From a virus: 41,786 nt of DNA. The position numbers and the translations under genes are program-made. The DNA lies in the IMG/VR virus record IMGVR_UViG_3300021960_000171, positions 1 through 41,786 of that record; one strand, 5' to 3'. How positions within the stretch are numbered: position 1 is the stretch's first letter; each line of letters starts with the position of its first letter. The notes beneath the pieces were generated by a model. The model saw nothing but the letters and a program-made list of their open reading frames with translations, had not been told where the DNA came from and searched no databases. Shown one piece after another: positions 7,808 through 15,524 of the stretch.

Positions 7808-8014
7808 TCATTGCTTCTCTATTAGTTGTTTCAGCAAGGCTTTCATTTCGCTCATTTCATTTTCTAATGCTTGCAATTTTGCGTCTTTATTTTTTCTATC
7901 ACGTCTAACATTTCTGAGCCTTTCAGCTTCACTTCTATTTATATTGATTAAAGCACCGTTTTTTACATCTCTAACAAGATCATCTCTACCTTTAACTTTA
8001 TTATAAATTTTCAT
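7808..8014 (-). CDS. Small coiled-coil protein (68 aa)
   Basis: It is short and charged: an N-terminal basic segment (MKIYNKVKGRDDLVRDVKNG) and then, from about residue 30, a heptad-like helix (LQALENEMSEMKALLKQLIEKQ) typical of a short coiled coil. The start overlaps the stop of the upstream gene as TAATG, and the next gene begins one base after its stop, so it is translationally coupled on both sides. No family is recognised. A minor virion part or fibre-attachment factor is possible. Confidence 0.65.
   Translation of the reverse strand: MKIYNKVKGRDDLVRDVKNGALININRSEAERLRNVRRDRKNKDAKLQALENEMSEMKALLKQLIEKQ
7936..7943 (-). promoter_or_regulatory. Possible T4-type late promoter inside the 68-aa gene
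   Basis: The minus strand reads TATAAATA, the T4 late consensus, about 130 bases before the ATG of the 893-residue fibre. It lies inside coding sequence, and in AT-rich DNA the octamer is expected by chance several times per window, so this is weaker than the intergenic copies. Confidence 0.35.
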
Positions 8015-9603
8015 TATGTACCAAGAGCAATTATAGACAAGTCACGAATCTTTGGAACACGACTTTGGTCTGTAGAGTTCATAACAAGTTTTACTTGAAA
8101 GGCATTAAATTCTGGTAAGGTTGTACCTGTAGTTGCTCCAATGTTATATTCATAATCTCTATATTGATTATCATCAATAGATTTTCCTGGATCGGCATCA
8201 ACAGTTGCCGCAATAAAGTTTGTTGTTGAAAGATCTGAATCATCGCCAATAGCACCAGTTCTGTAATACAGATCTACAGAAGTGTTGTTTAGAACATTGG
8301 CTCCATATAGAATCCTTAAACCTGTTGAAGGTTCCTCTAATCGGACTGTTTTAGTAATATGCTTTGCAAGAGATGACCCACTTGTTGGATGTGTTTCTGG
8401 AACAAAATTAAGTGGCACATTAAATCCTACAGTTGCAGCAGAATCTTGATTATCAATAATGTTACCGATTACCGTAAGACTAGCTCTTTGAGCATCAATG
8501 AATGGAGTGACAAAATCATTTGATATATCGGTTGACATAGTTGCACTAATAATAGTAGATTGTGTAATGGAATGCAAGTTCTCGTTTGAATCATTCATGA
8601 TAACGTGTGGAACATCCAATTTAGTATCTTGGTCGTTGACCATTGCAAGATTTGATGTTACACCATAAGGTGTTTCAGTACCAGCAAAAGATTTTGATGT
8701 AGCTATATCACCTGTAAGTGAGACAGTGGAAGTATTCCTTGGATTATATATTTCAATACTAGGTTGGATTACATCATATTTAATTTGTTTAGATGCAAAG
8801 ATACCGGAGCCACCAAATTCAACAGATGCTGTTGCATTCCCACCTGCATTAAATTTATATCCAGTTCCATCAACAGCTGTAATAACACGTCTACCATTTA
8901 GGTTAGCCGCTGTAATACCATTTACGGTCCCAGTTACACCAATGATATTGACCCTATCATTGATCTGAAATCCATGGTTGGGATGTTGAACTCGAATAAC
9001 AGCACTCGATGCAGTACCAGTAAATGGATCATCGATAAGAGGATCTTCATCAACATTAGCATCAAAGAACTTAGCTATACCGCTGGTAGAAGCAAACTTT
9101 GCAACATATAAATTATATTTTAAATCTACATCCAAATTCGGTGCAGGTGCATTACCGGTGTTACCACTAAACATGTTTCCAGGTGCAAGGTTTTTTACAA
9201 TTTTTCTTGTGGTAGAACCTAGATTAAAATCAAGAACCTTTCCGCCCCAAACCTTATATGTATTAGCCTCGGAACATGCAAGAGTAAAAGCATGCATTTT
9301 ACCTGGGTGTAAATAAACAGGTTCATCAAATTGGAAGGATGTTGCCACACTTGCGTCGGTTGAAGTAGTAATAGAAGATGCGTTTCTTGTTACTTGAGAT
9401 CCTGGAATAATCTGATAGGTATTAGGCGCACCTTGATCAGCATTTCTTATTGCTAAAGTAATAGGATATGTTGCGCTTTTTTCTTGGAAAAATACCTCAA
9501 CCTTTGTTAAATATGCACCATGAATAGACCCTAGCGCAAAAGTTTGCGCCATAGGGTTAACATGAATATCTTGAGGTACACCTGACTTTGTACTATATGC
9601 CAT
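8014..9603 (-). CDS. Baseplate-associated virion structural protein (529 aa)
   Basis: The N-terminus (VNPMAQTFALGS, then GAYLTKVEVFFQEK and PITLAIRNADQGAP) is a beta-rich module I associate with T4-like marine phage baseplate/fibre-network proteins: a D/NP-AQTF motif followed by a jelly-roll-like strand pattern. The middle has a Gly-Ser-rich beta segment around residues 190-270. The C-terminus ends SRVPKIRDLSIIALGT. It follows the 1504-residue protein by 11 bases and overlaps the next gene as TAATG. A gp10/gp9-like position is suggested by order, but I cannot assign a T4 gene number. Confidence 0.65.
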   Translation of the reverse strand: MAYSTKSGVPQDIHVNPMAQTFALGSIHGAYLTKVEVFFQEKSATYPITLAIRNADQGAPNTYQIIPGSQVTRNASSITTSTDASVATSFQFDEPVYLHPGKMHAFTLACSEANTYKVWGGKVLDFNLGSTTRKIVKNLAPGNMFSGNTGNAPAPNLDVDLKYNLYVAKFASTSGIAKFFDANVDEDPLIDDPFTGTASSAVIRVQHPNHGFQINDRVNIIGVTGTVNGITAANLNGRRVITAVDGTGYKFNAGGNATASVEFGGSGIFASKQIKYDVIQPSIEIYNPRNTSTVSLTGDIATSKSFAGTETPYGVTSNLAMVNDQDTKLDVPHVIMNDSNENLHSITQSTIISATMSTDISNDFVTPFIDAQRASLTVIGNIIDNQDSAATVGFNVPLNFVPETHPTSGSSLAKHITKTVRLEEPSTGLRILYGANVLNNTSVDLYYRTGAIGDDSDLSTTNFIAATVDADPGKSIDDNQYRDYEYNIGATTGTTLPEFNAFQVKLVMNSTDQSRVPKIRDLSIIALGT

Positions 9604-9614
9604 TTATTTCGCCT

Positions 9615-12600
9615 TTATATTTTAACATTTGTTTTTGCTGTCAAGTACTTGCCGATCAATCGACATATTGGGTAACCAACAGTCATTATCATTTTTCCAA
9701 AGATATTAGATTTATATTCAGTTGGGTTTAATTCATGTGCCATTTGTTTAGCCCAGGAACCAGCAACTGGTCTTGCAAGAAGATGAAGAACTAATTTATT
9801 ACCAATACCACTTCCTTGTATATATTTAGCAATTGGTTTACCCCAAACATAATAACCATTGTAAAGATCTGGATCAAGTCTTTGTGTAGCTATACCGTAT
9901 TCTTGGTCAAGCCTATAAACACCTTCACTAAGATATCCAAGATTATATAAGGCAGTACATATAACAGTACCATCGCCGCCGCCACCGCCGCCACCGCCAC
10001 CTGGAGCCGCGCCACCTGGTGACGGTGACGGTGAGGGACAGGCATCTCCCATGTCTACACCACAAGGTTTGTTGTGAACTAAAATACCGTTTGCATAATA
10101 TGTGTTGTTACCAGTTAAACTTAGATTATACAGTTGAAGTTCTGGTTCTCTTTCTTGTGGTACCCACGATTCAATTTTTAATTTACCTTGTTCAGTTACA
10201 AGAGTTGTTCCTATATTAATATCAACCAGAGGACCGCCATTATCATTTACAACATTTGCATATGCTTGTGGATCATGTTGTTCAAATTCTTTTACATTTA
10301 TAGCTCCCCACCCTTCTGTGGTCATCAGAGGATGTTCTTCAGATAAGAATGGTTTCATATCATTAATACCATTAATACCATACAGTAATCTTGAACCGAT
10401 AGGAACAATTTCAATAGCAGTTACTTCGTTATTCCAAGTATGCCCTTGTTCATCTGGCATACTTTTCACCATATCACCACGTCTTACTGCAGAGATATGC
10501 TTCTTTGTTCCATCAGACATAGTTACTAGAGTATCAGAAGTGAAGCAAGACGGTTGTGCATAAGGTGGGTAAACTTTATTTTCTACATATCTTGTATCGG
10601 TGGCGACAGCAAAGTCATATTCTCTTGTTACCAAGAACTCTTCTTGTGATACTCTTAATACACCAGCAGATGTAAATATACCTTTTGTATATGATGTAGC
10701 ATTTTTGGTATTATGCGTTTCAACATCAGTAATAAGTATCTCACGTCGTCCTGTGTTAATTTTAATTGTATCATTATTTGGAATAAGAATATAACCAGAC
10801 AACGCACCATTAGCATCAGTAGTGTGTGTTGTTGCTCCACCTAATGTTGCCGGATAGCCAGTTGCATTTTTCCATTTCTTACCAGCTTTTCTGTAAATAG
10901 AGTCACGTGCAAGAGTAGCTTCGGGAACATATGCGCCAACACCTGTTGCTGTAGATGCATATGCACTTATGTTAACTTTGCCCATAAAAATAAAGTGTTT
11001 TGTATTTGGTCTAAGCCCAGTTGCTCTGATGGAGACAAATCTTGCTCTCATCTTTTTAATTTCACTTGTTGAAATAATTTTTTCGCCAAGAGATTCAACA
11101 ACTGTTTCAGAATTTTTAAATTTCCAAGTTTTCGTTTCAGTTGTACTTCCCGCTGCAGTACTGGTTGTAGTTGAGTTACTACCTAGGACTTGACCTCTTT
11201 TATAGGTATCAGCATCATCTGGGGTAATACCTCTCCAAGAAGTATTCCAATCTTGGTATTTGCGACCATTGACAGAGATTTTATCTCCACCTTGGATAAG
11301 CTTATCTGCTTTATCTACATCATCATACCAACTATCAGACCGTGGAGACATTTGTAATGTACCTGTCATGGTCTGAATACCAACAGGATTTACGATAAAG
11401 GCTCGAGATGCTTTTGTCTGTGACTGTGTAAGAAAATGTGTATATTTCAAATAAATGTTATCACCAACTAAACGAGTGTTTGTGGATGTATCCGAATCAT
11501 ATACAAGAGGCACAGAGTATGATCTAAAATTAGGACGAATCTCGTGTCTAATCATATCACGTGATGATCTGTAGTTCGAGTCAAGTGTATCTGTGCCTAT
11601 GTCATTGAAGAAGTTATCAGCAAAGATGCCAGATTTAAATCTGTTATTACCAGCACTATCGTAAACGTTTACATTATCTTGTTTCAACTCAAGCATTGTA
11701 AGCGCAGTAAGTTCCTCAAGATCATTGATCTTTTTCTCTAAATGCCCAATATCTCTCATAGTATATCGGCGGTTATCTTTATATGTAACCGTCAAGTCAT
11801 CGTCTGTAATCATATATGGATTAAGTTCAATAGAAGCAACTTCCATAGTACCCTCACCAAGTGTAGGATACTTTGGTTCGAACGCTGGGTCACCAAACTT
11901 AACACCAACATAACCATCTCTATGAATAAATGCCTTACCTCTTTTAGGAAGGTAGTAATCAACATCGAGAGTAATAATGTCTGTATTTTTTGGTAAAGGA
12001 AAAACAGCCGCTCCAGAAGAACTAAAGTTATCTGCACCATTTGCTTTACGAGGTCTAAAGTCTAAGACGTCATACAACGGAATGGACTCTCCATTCGCTT
12101 GTCTGTGACCTGGAATATCTTCATATGCTACTTGACCATCATATGAGTTTACTGCAAAGAAGTCTCCTGTAGAACCATGATTAAAAAACTTATATGTTAC
12201 ATTTATGTTACCAGCAGGCGCAGCTTTGCCACCTTTCAATATAAGCTTACCTCTTCCATAGAAGTTGTCAGTTTGACCATTATCTAAAGTGAAGTTTCTA
12301 GTAATATCTAATGATGTAGTAGCATCTATAACTGACGTAATAGAATAGATATCACATCTATCTAAAAGAACACCTCTTGAACCAAGAGAAATGCCACTCT
12401 GAGTTCTATCCTTGAGAGTCTTAGATCTTACAGTAGCTACCTTTTTCTTTTGATAATAGTATATTACAACACTTGCACTTGCTGTAACACCCTCTAAAAC
12501 AGTAGTTGAAGTACCAGCAGTTTTTACTGTAAAGTTTTCAAATACTCCTGTGCTGCTATTGGCAACAATCCAGCTAGTAGCATTGACAAGATCAAAGGAA

Positions 12601-14129
12601 CTGCTAGTTCTAGTAACTGTAACTTCTCCATCACCATCAGCGGTCAACGTGGCTGATGAGTATTGAGCTATAACCGAGATGTCGCTGATTTGTTCTGGTC
12701 TATTTTTAGGCAATGCAAAAAGTAAGTTGTTATTTTGCACATCTTTCAGTTGAGCAATGCCTGTAGGTTCTAATGTCACATCAAAATATTGTGTAGTGCT
12801 ATCGCCAAGTGATCTTACAAGAGATATATTTTTACCAGAGTTCATTTTGACTTCGAACAAATAAACTCTATATCCACTCCCTGCTTTTTCTACTGCCCTT
12901 ACTCTTGCAGTACCAATAGTAGATCCGCCATATGTAATAGCACTTCTAAGCTGAACAATTTCAAAGTTAGTAATATCAAATAGAGTATCTAGTTTACCTG
13001 TAGAACAGTTAAAGTAGTTACCATATTGAGCAACTGAGGATGTATTTTGCACATTTCCTGTTGTTCTTGGTTTTGAATAGAATGGTGAAACAGCTCCACG
13101 AAGATAATACCGATGCCCCTCTACATATGCTTTACCTGGATTAAAAGTAATATCTAGATTTGTATTGTCTGAGTCATTAGTGGCAAAATCAAGAAGAAAG
13201 TTACCGATTGTATAGTTACCAGATTCTTCATGAGTTCTTCGAGCCATCTCCTCACCGATATCTGAATATTTTTTATCAAGTGCTGTTGTGTGTGATAAAA
13301 TTCCATCAGAAATACCAGCTATTGGGATAAATCGTTCGTCGCTATCTATTAAACTATTCAAAGTGAGTTCTAATTTAACTTGATATCGGTCAGCGCCTGG
13401 CGCAGCTAAGTTTAAGTTTGGACCAGAGTTATCAAAAAGATTTTGATCATCAGCTGATGTAATGATTTTTTCTGATACTTTAAAACCAACCATTTCAGTT
13501 GGTGTAGCATCATATTTACCAACAACAATATCTTCAGCAGATTTATATATGGCATGGCCATCAAGATAGAATCTACCTTCACCCTGCGCCACAACACATG
13601 ACTTACCGAGTGCGGGATTTAATAAAGTGTTTGTAGTTTGAATATCAAGAACAGTTCCAGAAGTAGAGCCTGTAAGAGATCTACCTGGTGTAAGGTTTAC
13701 TGATGCTGTTGTATCGGTTGGAATTTCTCCATTTGCATCAAGAATTTGTACAAATAATGTTGCGGGATCTGATCCTGTTGCTGTAACAACTTTTAAAACT
13801 TTTACAATAATACCTGATGTACTCTCAACAAAATTCTCATTTTCAATGCTGGTAGGAGTTGCAGGTAAACCGTTTGTTGAAGTATCAAGTTTTACAAATT
13901 TTACATCTTTTCGTACATCTATATCACCGCCAGATATAGAAGCGCCGGCACGATAAATCCCACCTTGCATCGCATCTTGATCACGATTGATAATGGTCTG
14001 TAATTGGTTTAGTTCTCGGTTCTGTAGACCACGCCCAGAGTTAAAAAGGATCTGATAATAGTTGTCACTATCTCTGTAGTCATCCTTATATTGTGTAAGG
14101 AATAAATTTTTGATTACTTCGGTTGCCAT
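9615..14129 (-). CDS. Giant DUF4815-type baseplate protein with C-terminal Hint domain (1504 aa)
   Basis: Residues 1 to about 800 have the pattern of DUF4815 proteins of marine T4-like phages, from the opening FLTQYKDDYRDSDNYYQILF to a region with YYLPKRGKAF. Residues about 800-1190 are a helical then beta-rich continuation. Residues 1195-1353 are a complete Hint domain without endonuclease. Next come a PSPSPSPGG linker, nine consecutive Gly, and a 115-residue helical tail (CTALYNLGYLSEGVYRLDQE, VWGKPIAKYI, WAKQMAHEL) that looks like a conserved folded module. It sits between gp8 and another virion protein, so it is probably a wedge or outer baseplate part. T4 has no equivalent with a Hint domain. 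Polypeptide cleavage at the Hint is inferred; the DUF4815 assignment is from memory of the family. Confidence 0.75.
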   Translation of the reverse strand: MATEVIKNLFLTQYKDDYRDSDNYYQILFNSGRGLQNRELNQLQTIINRDQDAMQGGIYRAGASISGGDIDVRKDVKFVKLDTSTNGLPATPTSIENENFVESTSGIIVKVLKVVTATGSDPATLFVQILDANGEIPTDTTASVNLTPGRSLTGSTSGTVLDIQTTNTLLNPALGKSCVVAQGEGRFYLDGHAIYKSAEDIVVGKYDATPTEMVGFKVSEKIITSADDQNLFDNSGPNLNLAAPGADRYQVKLELTLNSLIDSDERFIPIAGISDGILSHTTALDKKYSDIGEEMARRTHEESGNYTIGNFLLDFATNDSDNTNLDITFNPGKAYVEGHRYYLRGAVSPFYSKPRTTGNVQNTSSVAQYGNYFNCSTGKLDTLFDITNFEIVQLRSAITYGGSTIGTARVRAVEKAGSGYRVYLFEVKMNSGKNISLVRSLGDSTTQYFDVTLEPTGIAQLKDVQNNNLLFALPKNRPEQISDISVIAQYSSATLTADGDGEVTVTRTSSSFDLVNATSWIVANSSTGVFENFTVKTAGTSTTVLEGVTASASVVIYYYQKKKVATVRSKTLKDRTQSGISLGSRGVLLDRCDIYSITSVIDATTSLDITRNFTLDNGQTDNFYGRGKLILKGGKAAPAGNINVTYKFFNHGSTGDFFAVNSYDGQVAYEDIPGHRQANGESIPLYDVLDFRPRKANGADNFSSSGAAVFPLPKNTDIITLDVDYYLPKRGKAFIHRDGYVGVKFGDPAFEPKYPTLGEGTMEVASIELNPYMITDDDLTVTYKDNRRYTMRDIGHLEKKINDLEELTALTMLELKQDNVNVYDSAGNNRFKSGIFADNFFNDIGTDTLDSNYRSSRDMIRHEIRPNFRSYSVPLVYDSDTSTNTRLVGDNIYLKYTHFLTQSQTKASRAFIVNPVGIQTMTGTLQMSPRSDSWYDDVDKADKLIQGGDKISVNGRKYQDWNTSWRGITPDDADTYKRGQVLGSNSTTTSTAAGSTTETKTWKFKNSETVVESLGEKIISTSEIKKMRARFVSIRATGLRPNTKHFIFMGKVNISAYASTATGVGAYVPEATLARDSIYRKAGKKWKNATGYPATLGGATTHTTDANGALSGYILIPNNDTIKINTGRREILITDVETHNTKNATSYTKGIFTSAGVLRVSQEEFLVTREYDFAVATDTRYVENKVYPPYAQPSCFTSDTLVTMSDGTKKHISAVRRGDMVKSMPDEQGHTWNNEVTAIEIVPIGSRLLYGINGINDMKPFLSEEHPLMTTEGWGAINVKEFEQHDPQAYANVVNDNGGPLVDINIGTTLVTEQGKLKIESWVPQEREPELQLYNLSLTGNNTYYANGILVHNKPCGVDMGDACPSPSPSPGGAAPGGGGGGGGGDGTVICTALYNLGYLSEGVYRLDQEYGIATQRLDPDLYNGYYVWGKPIAKYIQGSGIGNKLVLHLLARPVAGSWAKQMAHELNPTEYKSNIFGKMIMTVGYPICRLIGKYLTAKTNVKI
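9975..10001 (-). repeat. Nine-Gly codon run in linker after the Hint domain
   Basis: On the plus strand it reads GCC/ACC triplets, i.e. nine Gly codons on the coding strand, flanked by GGAAP and DGT. It is markedly GC-rich compared with the surroundings. It forms a flexible linker between the Hint domain and the C-terminal module, and its triplet nature makes it prone to length change. Confidence 0.85.
10071..10547 (-). other. Hint (intein-like) domain, residues 1195-1353
   Basis: Block A begins at Cys1195: CFTSDTLVTMSDGTKKH, then RRGDMV. Block B has its histidine in LSEEHPLMT. The C-terminal block is YYANGILVHN, ending in Asn1353. At 159 residues it is mini-intein size, with no room for a homing endonuclease. 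The residue after Asn is Lys1354, not Cys, Ser or Thr, so the classical transesterification acceptor is absent. This matches the bacterial intein-like (BIL, A-type) arrangement, which mostly cleaves at one or both ends. Active-site residues are seen directly; activity is inferred. Confidence 0.85.
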
Positions 14130-14138
14130 GGTTAGTCC

Positions 14139-15524
14139 TTATATTTCTATGATGACCTTAATGTCTTCAGTTTGGTCTGCAGTTCTCAATACAGAAGCTC
14201 TGCTTTCTACATATAGCAAATCACCACTAAATGGCATTGCTTTTGGATCCAAATGGAAATTAGCAGTGTTCAATAATGTTCCTGTGTTGTTATCAGAATC
14301 TGCAACACCTTCACCTTGAGAGAATGGAATAAACCCAGTTGCTTCTGTTTGGTGATAGTATAACTCATCTGAATCCTTTCTATCTATAATGGCTTTAGCA
14401 GCAGATGATGCGCCTGTCAGTGTGCTACCAATGGTAAAAGATAGACCAGTTCCAGTTGACATTTTCAGTCGGTTTAAAGAGTTGCCCGAGGTAGCAGTAA
14501 ATGCAACGTCTGCAGAGTCAAGTGGGTTTTTAACAATACCGATTTGTCTAAAACTAGTACCGATAGGAAACTCTGACGAGTCTCCAGTAGTTTCTGCGCC
14601 AGATGGTTTTGCATTGAACATAATAGCACGTGACCGTAGATCATTTCTAGGGTCTTTACCAAACCCACCTCTCGGTGATAATCTCACTCTTGCTGTGGCA
14701 GAAGTTGTGGGTCCACCACCTGATAATACTGCTTCTGCGTAATCATAACCAGATCCAAGAACAAGAGTTCCAGCACTCTCATCCATTTCAATCTTAGTCA
14801 CAGCACCACCAGATACTGTGGCGATTGCTCTTGCTCCAGTACCGTTACCTTTAATCGTTACTGAGGGGGCTGATGTATAACCAGCGCCACCTGTTAGAAC
14901 TTGAACTCCAGACAATGAGTTGTTAATGGCTGCATTTTGAATACCTTTTTGCTCTACCAACTGTGACAAAGATGTGACATTACCAGATCCGTCAGAATCA
15001 AGTTTGCCTTGCAGTAGAACAGGGTGAAAGTTAGCGGCAAGAAAAGAAGACAAGTTTGGTGTGGTCATAGTGTATAAGAATTTCCAAGCATATCCATCAG
15101 CATAAGTCTTTGTAACAACATCAACACCTGTTGGTTTTATAGTAGAAGCAACGGCATTACCAAGAGCATTTCTCCCTTGTTTGACGCAGAGATAAACAGC
15201 ATTGGTATCTGTCATTACATAGTAAGGTGTTGTTGTATGACCACCTAGATTGTCATTATATGCAGAGTATGTGGTACCTGAAATCCAGTTGTTTCTTGGC
15301 ACAACAAAGCTAAAATCTGCAACTCTTTTCATGGCTTGTAAGCCAAGTCTAAAGTTTCGAATCTCTCTTTCAGTTTGCTCTGGTGTTGGTGCAAGATCTG
15401 AGTCATTCCATTCGTCTGACTTGCCTATACCAATATAATATTTTGCACCAGCGGAGTCTGTAATATCATCGAAGATATACTGGATTGCTGCTTTTTTCAA
15501 GTCTTGTGTGATAATTGCTGACAT
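14139..15524 (-). CDS. 8: Baseplate wedge subunit gp8
   Basis: The start MSAIITQDLKKAAIQYIFDD followed by KYYIGIGKSDEWND is the usual opening of marine T4-like gp8, and TYADGYAWKFLYTMTTPNL is a second family landmark. T4 gp8 is 334 residues; this one is 461. Much of the difference is an inserted beta domain at about 205-290 with the GGAGYTSAPSVTIKG/GTGARAIATVSGG motif, a repeat type found in many virion proteins. gp8 dimers join gp6, gp7 and gp10 in the wedge. It is read 15 bases after the fibre-like gene and 9 bases before the Hint-containing protein. Confidence 0.8.
   Translation of the reverse strand: MSAIITQDLKKAAIQYIFDDITDSAGAKYYIGIGKSDEWNDSDLAPTPEQTEREIRNFRLGLQAMKRVADFSFVVPRNNWISGTTYSAYNDNLGGHTTTPYYVMTDTNAVYLCVKQGRNALGNAVASTIKPTGVDVVTKTYADGYAWKFLYTMTTPNLSSFLAANFHPVLLQGKLDSDGSGNVTSLSQLVEQKGIQNAAINNSLSGVQVLTGGAGYTSAPSVTIKGNGTGARAIATVSGGAVTKIEMDESAGTLVLGSGYDYAEAVLSGGGPTTSATARVRLSPRGGFGKDPRNDLRSRAIMFNAKPSGAETTGDSSEFPIGTSFRQIGIVKNPLDSADVAFTATSGNSLNRLKMSTGTGLSFTIGSTLTGASSAAKAIIDRKDSDELYYHQTEATGFIPFSQGEGVADSDNNTGTLLNTANFHLDPKAMPFSGDLLYVESRASVLRTADQTEDIKVIIEI

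Follow-up and report, generated by a model that had tools for sequence, protein, structure and literature searches.

A Hint domain resembling type-A bacterial intein-like domains at a variable joint of phage DUF4815 baseplate proteins

A DUF4815 baseplate-type protein of 1504 residues, encoded in the viral DNA analysed here (the window, which is a complete IMG/VR record, 41,786 bases long, and may be a fragment of a genome), carries a Hint domain at residues 1195-1353, which is probably an active self-processing cassette of the type-A bacterial intein-like (BIL) kind, placed at a tolerant joint of the DUF4815 chain, mobile, mainly cleaving and possibly also ligating.

The PF16075 score of the 1504-residue ORF (143.7 bits against a gathering threshold of 30), together with its neighbourhood of wedge and hub genes upstream, including one that is gp8-like, identified it as a DUF4815 baseplate protein (Table 1). 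Body residues 8-1180 were matched by tblastn in C48C1, VriC-type and other phages. PHROG_358 and PHROG_877 each span both this ORF and the adjacent 529-residue ORF, and in ORF65 of phage 812 (9euf) residues 791-950 match the 529-residue ORF and earlier residues match the body; the two ORFs are therefore halves of a chain that is single elsewhere. The first-pass annotation had placed the protein between gp8 and the fibres, which holds for the gp8-like gene upstream but not for the ORF at 8014-9603, as this is no fibre gene but the C-terminal half of the same family. A full intein joining the body to this C-terminal part (C-part) was rejected for the window, because the C-part is an ORF in its own right, which starts with an ATG and has an AGG ahead of it.

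Table 1. Positions of the DUF4815 gene, its parts and its neighbours in the window
Feature	Positions	Strand	Basis
1504-aa DUF4815 baseplate-type protein (body, Hint, linker, C-terminal module)	9615..14129	-	PF16075 8.4e-42; PHROG_358 3.7e-204
DUF4815 body, residues 1-1180	10590..14129	-	PHROG_358 match 459-1179; tblastn; phage 812 ORF65 9euf
Short linker, residues 1181-1194, ending in Ser1194 just before Cys1	10548..10589	-	sequence
Hint domain, residues 1195-1353	10071..10547	-	intein_Cterm, profiles, AlphaFold2 model, structure matches
Cys1195, Hint residue 1, predicted thioester former	10545..10547	-	38/38 relatives
His1266, block-B His, in motif SEEHP	10332..10334	-	38/38 in alignment
His1352-Asn1353, C-terminal catalytic pair	10071..10076 (Asn1353 codon 10071-10073)	-	His 38/38, Asn 37/38
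Lys1354, +1 residue	10068..10070	-	Lys 30, Arg 7, Val 1 of 38
Pro/Gly-rich linker, residues 1354-1388	9966..10070	-	sequence; pLDDT < 50
C-terminal helical 'ICTALY' module, residues 1389-1504 (116 residues)	9618..9965	-	33 related loci; model pLDDT 90.9
529-aa ORF, C-terminal half of DUF4815 family, separate gene here	8014..9603	-	PHROG_358 positions 1765-2054; 9euf residues 791-950
gp8-like baseplate wedge gene, upstream of DUF4815 gene	14139..15524	-	PF09215 4.9e-06; PHROG_438 2.1e-74

The segment at 10071-10547 encodes a genuine Hint domain. It scored 19.8 bits against NCBIfam intein_Cterm (cut-off 15.6) and 19.6 bits against Pfam Hint, under the cut-off of 29.7, and PF07591 (Pretoxin Hint) was absent from the Pfam matches listed at E up to 1. 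A profile of Hint relatives built without the window's own clade matched at E 3e-42, the sole match site in six frames of the window, and an alignment profile matched BIL and intein chains of solved structure at 2e-10 to 1e-5. Structure prediction, proposed in the first-pass annotation as a check, returned a confident Hint fold (AlphaFold2 pLDDT about 86-97 across the domain), with Tetrahymena BIL2 (Foldseek 8.8e-12, TM 0.84 on target length; VIA Z 19.6, 2.1 Å, 145 residues) and the Clostridium BIL 2lwy (Z 17.2) as nearest structures, mini-inteins close after them and Hedgehog lower.

The active site was compared in an alignment of 38 Hint sequences, some of them near copies that are counted in the totals, which had been recruited with DNA patterns internal to the domain and not at the +1 position; all close relatives of the window are metagenomic. 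The domain starts with Cys-Phe and ends in LVHN, and Cys1, the block-B His and the penultimate His were invariant (38/38), with the terminal Asn missing from a single sequence, L045 (L numbers designate the related loci). These catalytic residues rank among the most conserved Hint positions, and Cys1, the block-B His and the His-Asn pair persist down to about 30% identity. At the +1 position Lys was found in 30 sequences, Arg in seven and Val in one, and Cys, Ser or Thr in none of the 38, while the -1 residue was Ser in 27 of them. Among Bdellovibrionota and other bacterial relatives, Lys held the +1 position in 19 of 29 entries, a set that includes partial sequences and some already counted among the 38. 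A Cys stands 2-7 residues past the Asn in many relatives (NKPC in the window, 10062-10064). BILs are defined by the missing +1 nucleophile, and cleavage products dominate in them (PMC4031507; PMC7664689). The features by which type-A BILs are recognised, a Hint fold, an N-terminal Cys with block-B His, a C-terminal His-Asn and a +1 residue other than Cys, Ser or Thr, are all present, and the active site, as judged from the alignment, is type-A-BIL-like with an unusual, fixed basic +1 residue. Codons and profiles thus confirmed the earlier reading of a Cys1195 start, a block-B His and a VHN end at Asn1353 followed by Lys1354 in a 1504-residue protein, and fold and alignment bore out its assignment of type-A BIL residues with a non-nucleophile +1 to a virion-type protein.

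Activity, product ratio and virion role are inferences here, and by analogy with the BILs that have been studied the Hint would most probably be cut free at its two ends. Cys1195 would convert the peptide bond after Ser1194 into a thioester with the assistance of His1266, and Asn1353, assisted by His1352, would cyclise and so cut the chain ahead of Lys1354. The chief products would be a body ending in Ser1194, the free Hint and a 151-residue tail; now and then an amine, either the N-terminus newly exposed on Lys1354 or the side chain of a lysine, might be joined to the thioester. That +1 is never Cys, Ser or Thr, the mark of BILs, supports this cleavage-dominated reading. Against it, the conserved active site would suit every kind of Hint chemistry, transfer to an acceptor among them, many relatives end 1-4 residues past the Asn, where a C-terminal cut would free almost nothing, and the near-fixed Lys or Arg at +1 is not accounted for by simple cleavage.

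Ligation may instead be the purpose of the domain, a reading that we consider the less probable but give some weight. An amine would attack the body thioester, yielding either a spliced body-tail, if the amine is the N-terminus of Lys1354, or an isopeptide cross-link, if it belongs to a lysine in another part of the virion. We keep such a role in play because what all relatives have in common is the N-terminal junction, together with a basic +1 in nearly all (37/38, and Lys in most of the Bdellovibrionota set). Type-A BILs are able to splice through amine attack (PMC4031507), lysine isopeptide bonds have been reported for Tetrahymena BIL2, the closest solved relative (PMC8616854), and splicing would leave the C-terminal module attached, as it is in Hint-less proteins. 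However, the Arg of seven of the 38 sequences offers no suitable amine side chain, so that a +1 Lys side chain cannot be the general nucleophile, the dominant known BIL outcome is cleavage, and the acceptor is hypothetical. In a more specific form, which we regard as a long shot, a BIL-type, ATP-free reaction would weld the end of the baseplate protein to a lysine, on a second virion protein or on the host surface, during assembly or attachment, the fixed Lys or Arg at +1 being part of the transfer machinery.

The purpose suggested in the first-pass annotation, that the Hint frees the 151-residue C-terminal module during assembly, was not supported by the relatives and is unlikely. A Hint followed by a terminal module does recur, the module being ICTALY (window, L020, L023 and L030), S74 (L027, 3.1e-08) or the next domain (L024, L028 and L029). 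What comes after the Asn varies across the relatives, from 1-27 residues to another Hint, the next domain or an S74 chaperone; 14-21 residues follow it in L013-L017, four or two in L035, L041 and L042, and a single terminal Lys or Arg in L169, L170, L172, L176 and L187. Since many relatives thus carry the same Hint with almost nothing past the Asn, release of a module is not its general purpose. The ICTALY module, moreover, is normally tethered to Hint-less phage proteins, and at two more distant split loci (L051 and L054) an ICTALY-type module sits directly on a body without a Hint. In the Bdellovibrionota sequences L041, L042, L169, L170, L172, L176 and L187 the protein stops one or two residues past the Hint Asn (HNK, HNKP or HNR), which makes the Hint itself the C-terminus, and in L025 a Hint stands ahead of an S74-like tail in a fibre (a weak match, 16 of 22 bits).

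The ICTALY module is an independent C-terminal add-on. It occurs at the C-termini of phage proteins, nearly always after a Gly/Pro-rich or polar linker, and a Hint precedes it at only three of 33 loci. It was modelled as a helical bundle, with no PDB fold match at E < 1 and no Pfam or NCBIfam family match; matches in the viral library include members of its own family, for example a DUF4815 protein. CFI-box-CTERM (NF041770) gave no match to the window module, and a look-alike in L021 reached 12.0 of 40 bits. The module is widespread in aquatic phages (HMO-2011 gp49, SynMITS9220M01_028 and 33 IMG/VR loci).

The joint between body and C-part is a tolerant linker that takes optional modules, because several arrangements are found there. 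Most related DUF4815 proteins are one ORF without a Hint. A search for the same Hint in related DUF4815 proteins, which the first-pass annotation had recommended, found that L024, L028, L029 and L031 carry in-frame Hints, one or two each, where the body meets the C-part (for example HN followed by RDPLAQSF). In the clade containing the window the chain is in two ORFs, with one to three Hints, with a Hint and S74, or without a Hint but with a loose tail that is polar or rich in Gly, and the directly attached ICTALY-type modules of the distant split loci add a further form. As body and C-part thus occur in one chain, with or without a Hint between them, and also in two genes, again with or without a Hint, they need not be covalently joined. 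The loci L047, L053, L055 and L061 are split although they lack a Hint, so the data do not support a Hint as the cause of the gene split. A tblastn-level search of 50,697 phage records did not recover the full architecture of Hint plus module.

Some related loci differ in where the gene is broken or the Hint is placed. DUF4815 genes are broken earlier, within the body, in L052, L058, L059, L071 and L072, several with a Gly-rich or loose end, which marks a second natural break point. In L037 (6995-7477) a Hint stands at the extreme N-terminus (MC followed by CFAGDT...HNK) of an 821-residue phage protein that is tail-tip-like by eye, and the collagen-like phage protein of L034 (1-2361) holds no fewer than three complete Hints in tandem besides partial ones, and lies just ahead of an ORF that matches the C-part. 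Hints in L160, L164, L166, L168 and L171 lie in genomes with in-frame TGA, taken as Gly (code 25); a candidate division SR1 genome is among this set, and several Hint copies there are closely spaced.

Among related phages the Hint is exchanged, duplicated and lost as a unit at one variable joint. On a quickly built body tree, with some long branches including that of L031, Hint presence required at least six changes and splitting seven. The L017 body is closer to the window (dS 0.69) than to L013 (1.44), whereas its Hint is closer to L013 (0.37) than to the window (1.06), and the informative sites of L017 follow L013/L015 at 84 of 86 positions in the Hint, 239 of 515 in the body and six of 25 after the stop. 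The switch falls between nucleotides 5859 and 5862, the Cys1 codon, and these patterns indicate that the L017 Hint was exchanged as a cassette that begins at the Cys1 codon and ends close to the stop. The window and L011 are near-identical in body and Hint and diverge in the stretch after the Asn (pS 0.15 vs 0.02). Hint dN of 0.02-0.22 against dS of 0.2-1.06, for window pairs with differences, reflects purifying selection.

For a mainly cleaving cassette, such gain, loss, duplication and swapping would be tolerated by the baseplate, because the Hint would excise itself from a joint that is variable and optional. Tandem Hints (L020, L022, L023, L031 and L034) are most easily tolerated if self-excising, though such arrays could also persist as displayed domains. 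That the Hint is a catalytically silent domain displayed at an exposed joint and kept for binding would fit a variable linker position that also accepts other modules and the tandem copies, but its catalytic residues should then decay, yet they are among the most conserved and the Asn is missing in only one of 38, and we consider this very improbable.

So far BIL domains have chiefly been known from proteins of bacteria and from polyubiquitin loci of ciliates. In an open-access literature search no description of Hints in phage baseplate or fibre proteins was found, phage Hints in the papers covered being inteins in terminase, ribonucleotide reductase and similar genes, and to our knowledge models of T4-type contractile-tail assembly include no self-processing step of this kind. 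A Hint family in phage baseplate and fibre proteins, exchanged as cassettes and with a basic +1 residue, offers an accessible BIL system, in which virions are purifiable and peptides readable. It would add a self-processing step to contractile-tail assembly and would offer a compact source of cleaving or ligating domains.

Among known systems, the window Hint resembles the type-A BILs of Clostridium thermocellum (2lwy) and Tetrahymena BUBL1 (BIL2, 6y75/6tmm) in fold (Z 17.2 and 19.6), in Cys1, block-B His and C-terminal His-Asn and in lacking Cys, Ser or Thr at +1; unlike them, it lies in a phage baseplate protein, has Lys or Arg nearly always at +1, and occurs in tandem copies and as a cassette exchanged from phage to phage. 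With class 1 inteins (gp41-1, DnaB) it shares the fold, blocks A and B and the terminal His-Asn, but it has no +1 nucleophile (Lys1354) and no endonuclease and sits in a variable linker instead of a conserved site; the single interrupted host ORF of class 1 inteins is absent from the window and is seen, in form only, in L024, L028, L029 and L031. The Hedgehog Hog Hint is alike in fold (1at0, Z 14.7), in its Cys-Phe start and in the weak Pfam Hint match, which in the window is under gathering (19.6 vs 29.7 bits), and differs from the window Hint in the latter's terminal His-Asn. S74 endosialidase-type chaperones of phage fibres are self-cutting units at the end of virion proteins; they provide a working analogy, with a fold and chemistry unrelated to those of the Hint. 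The DUF4815 proteins of staphylococcal, ViI-like and marine phages (VriC/VrlC; phage 812 ORF65, 9euf) are homologous in body and C-part, but where most of these are a single chain without a Hint, the window has the chain split over two genes and the Hint present.
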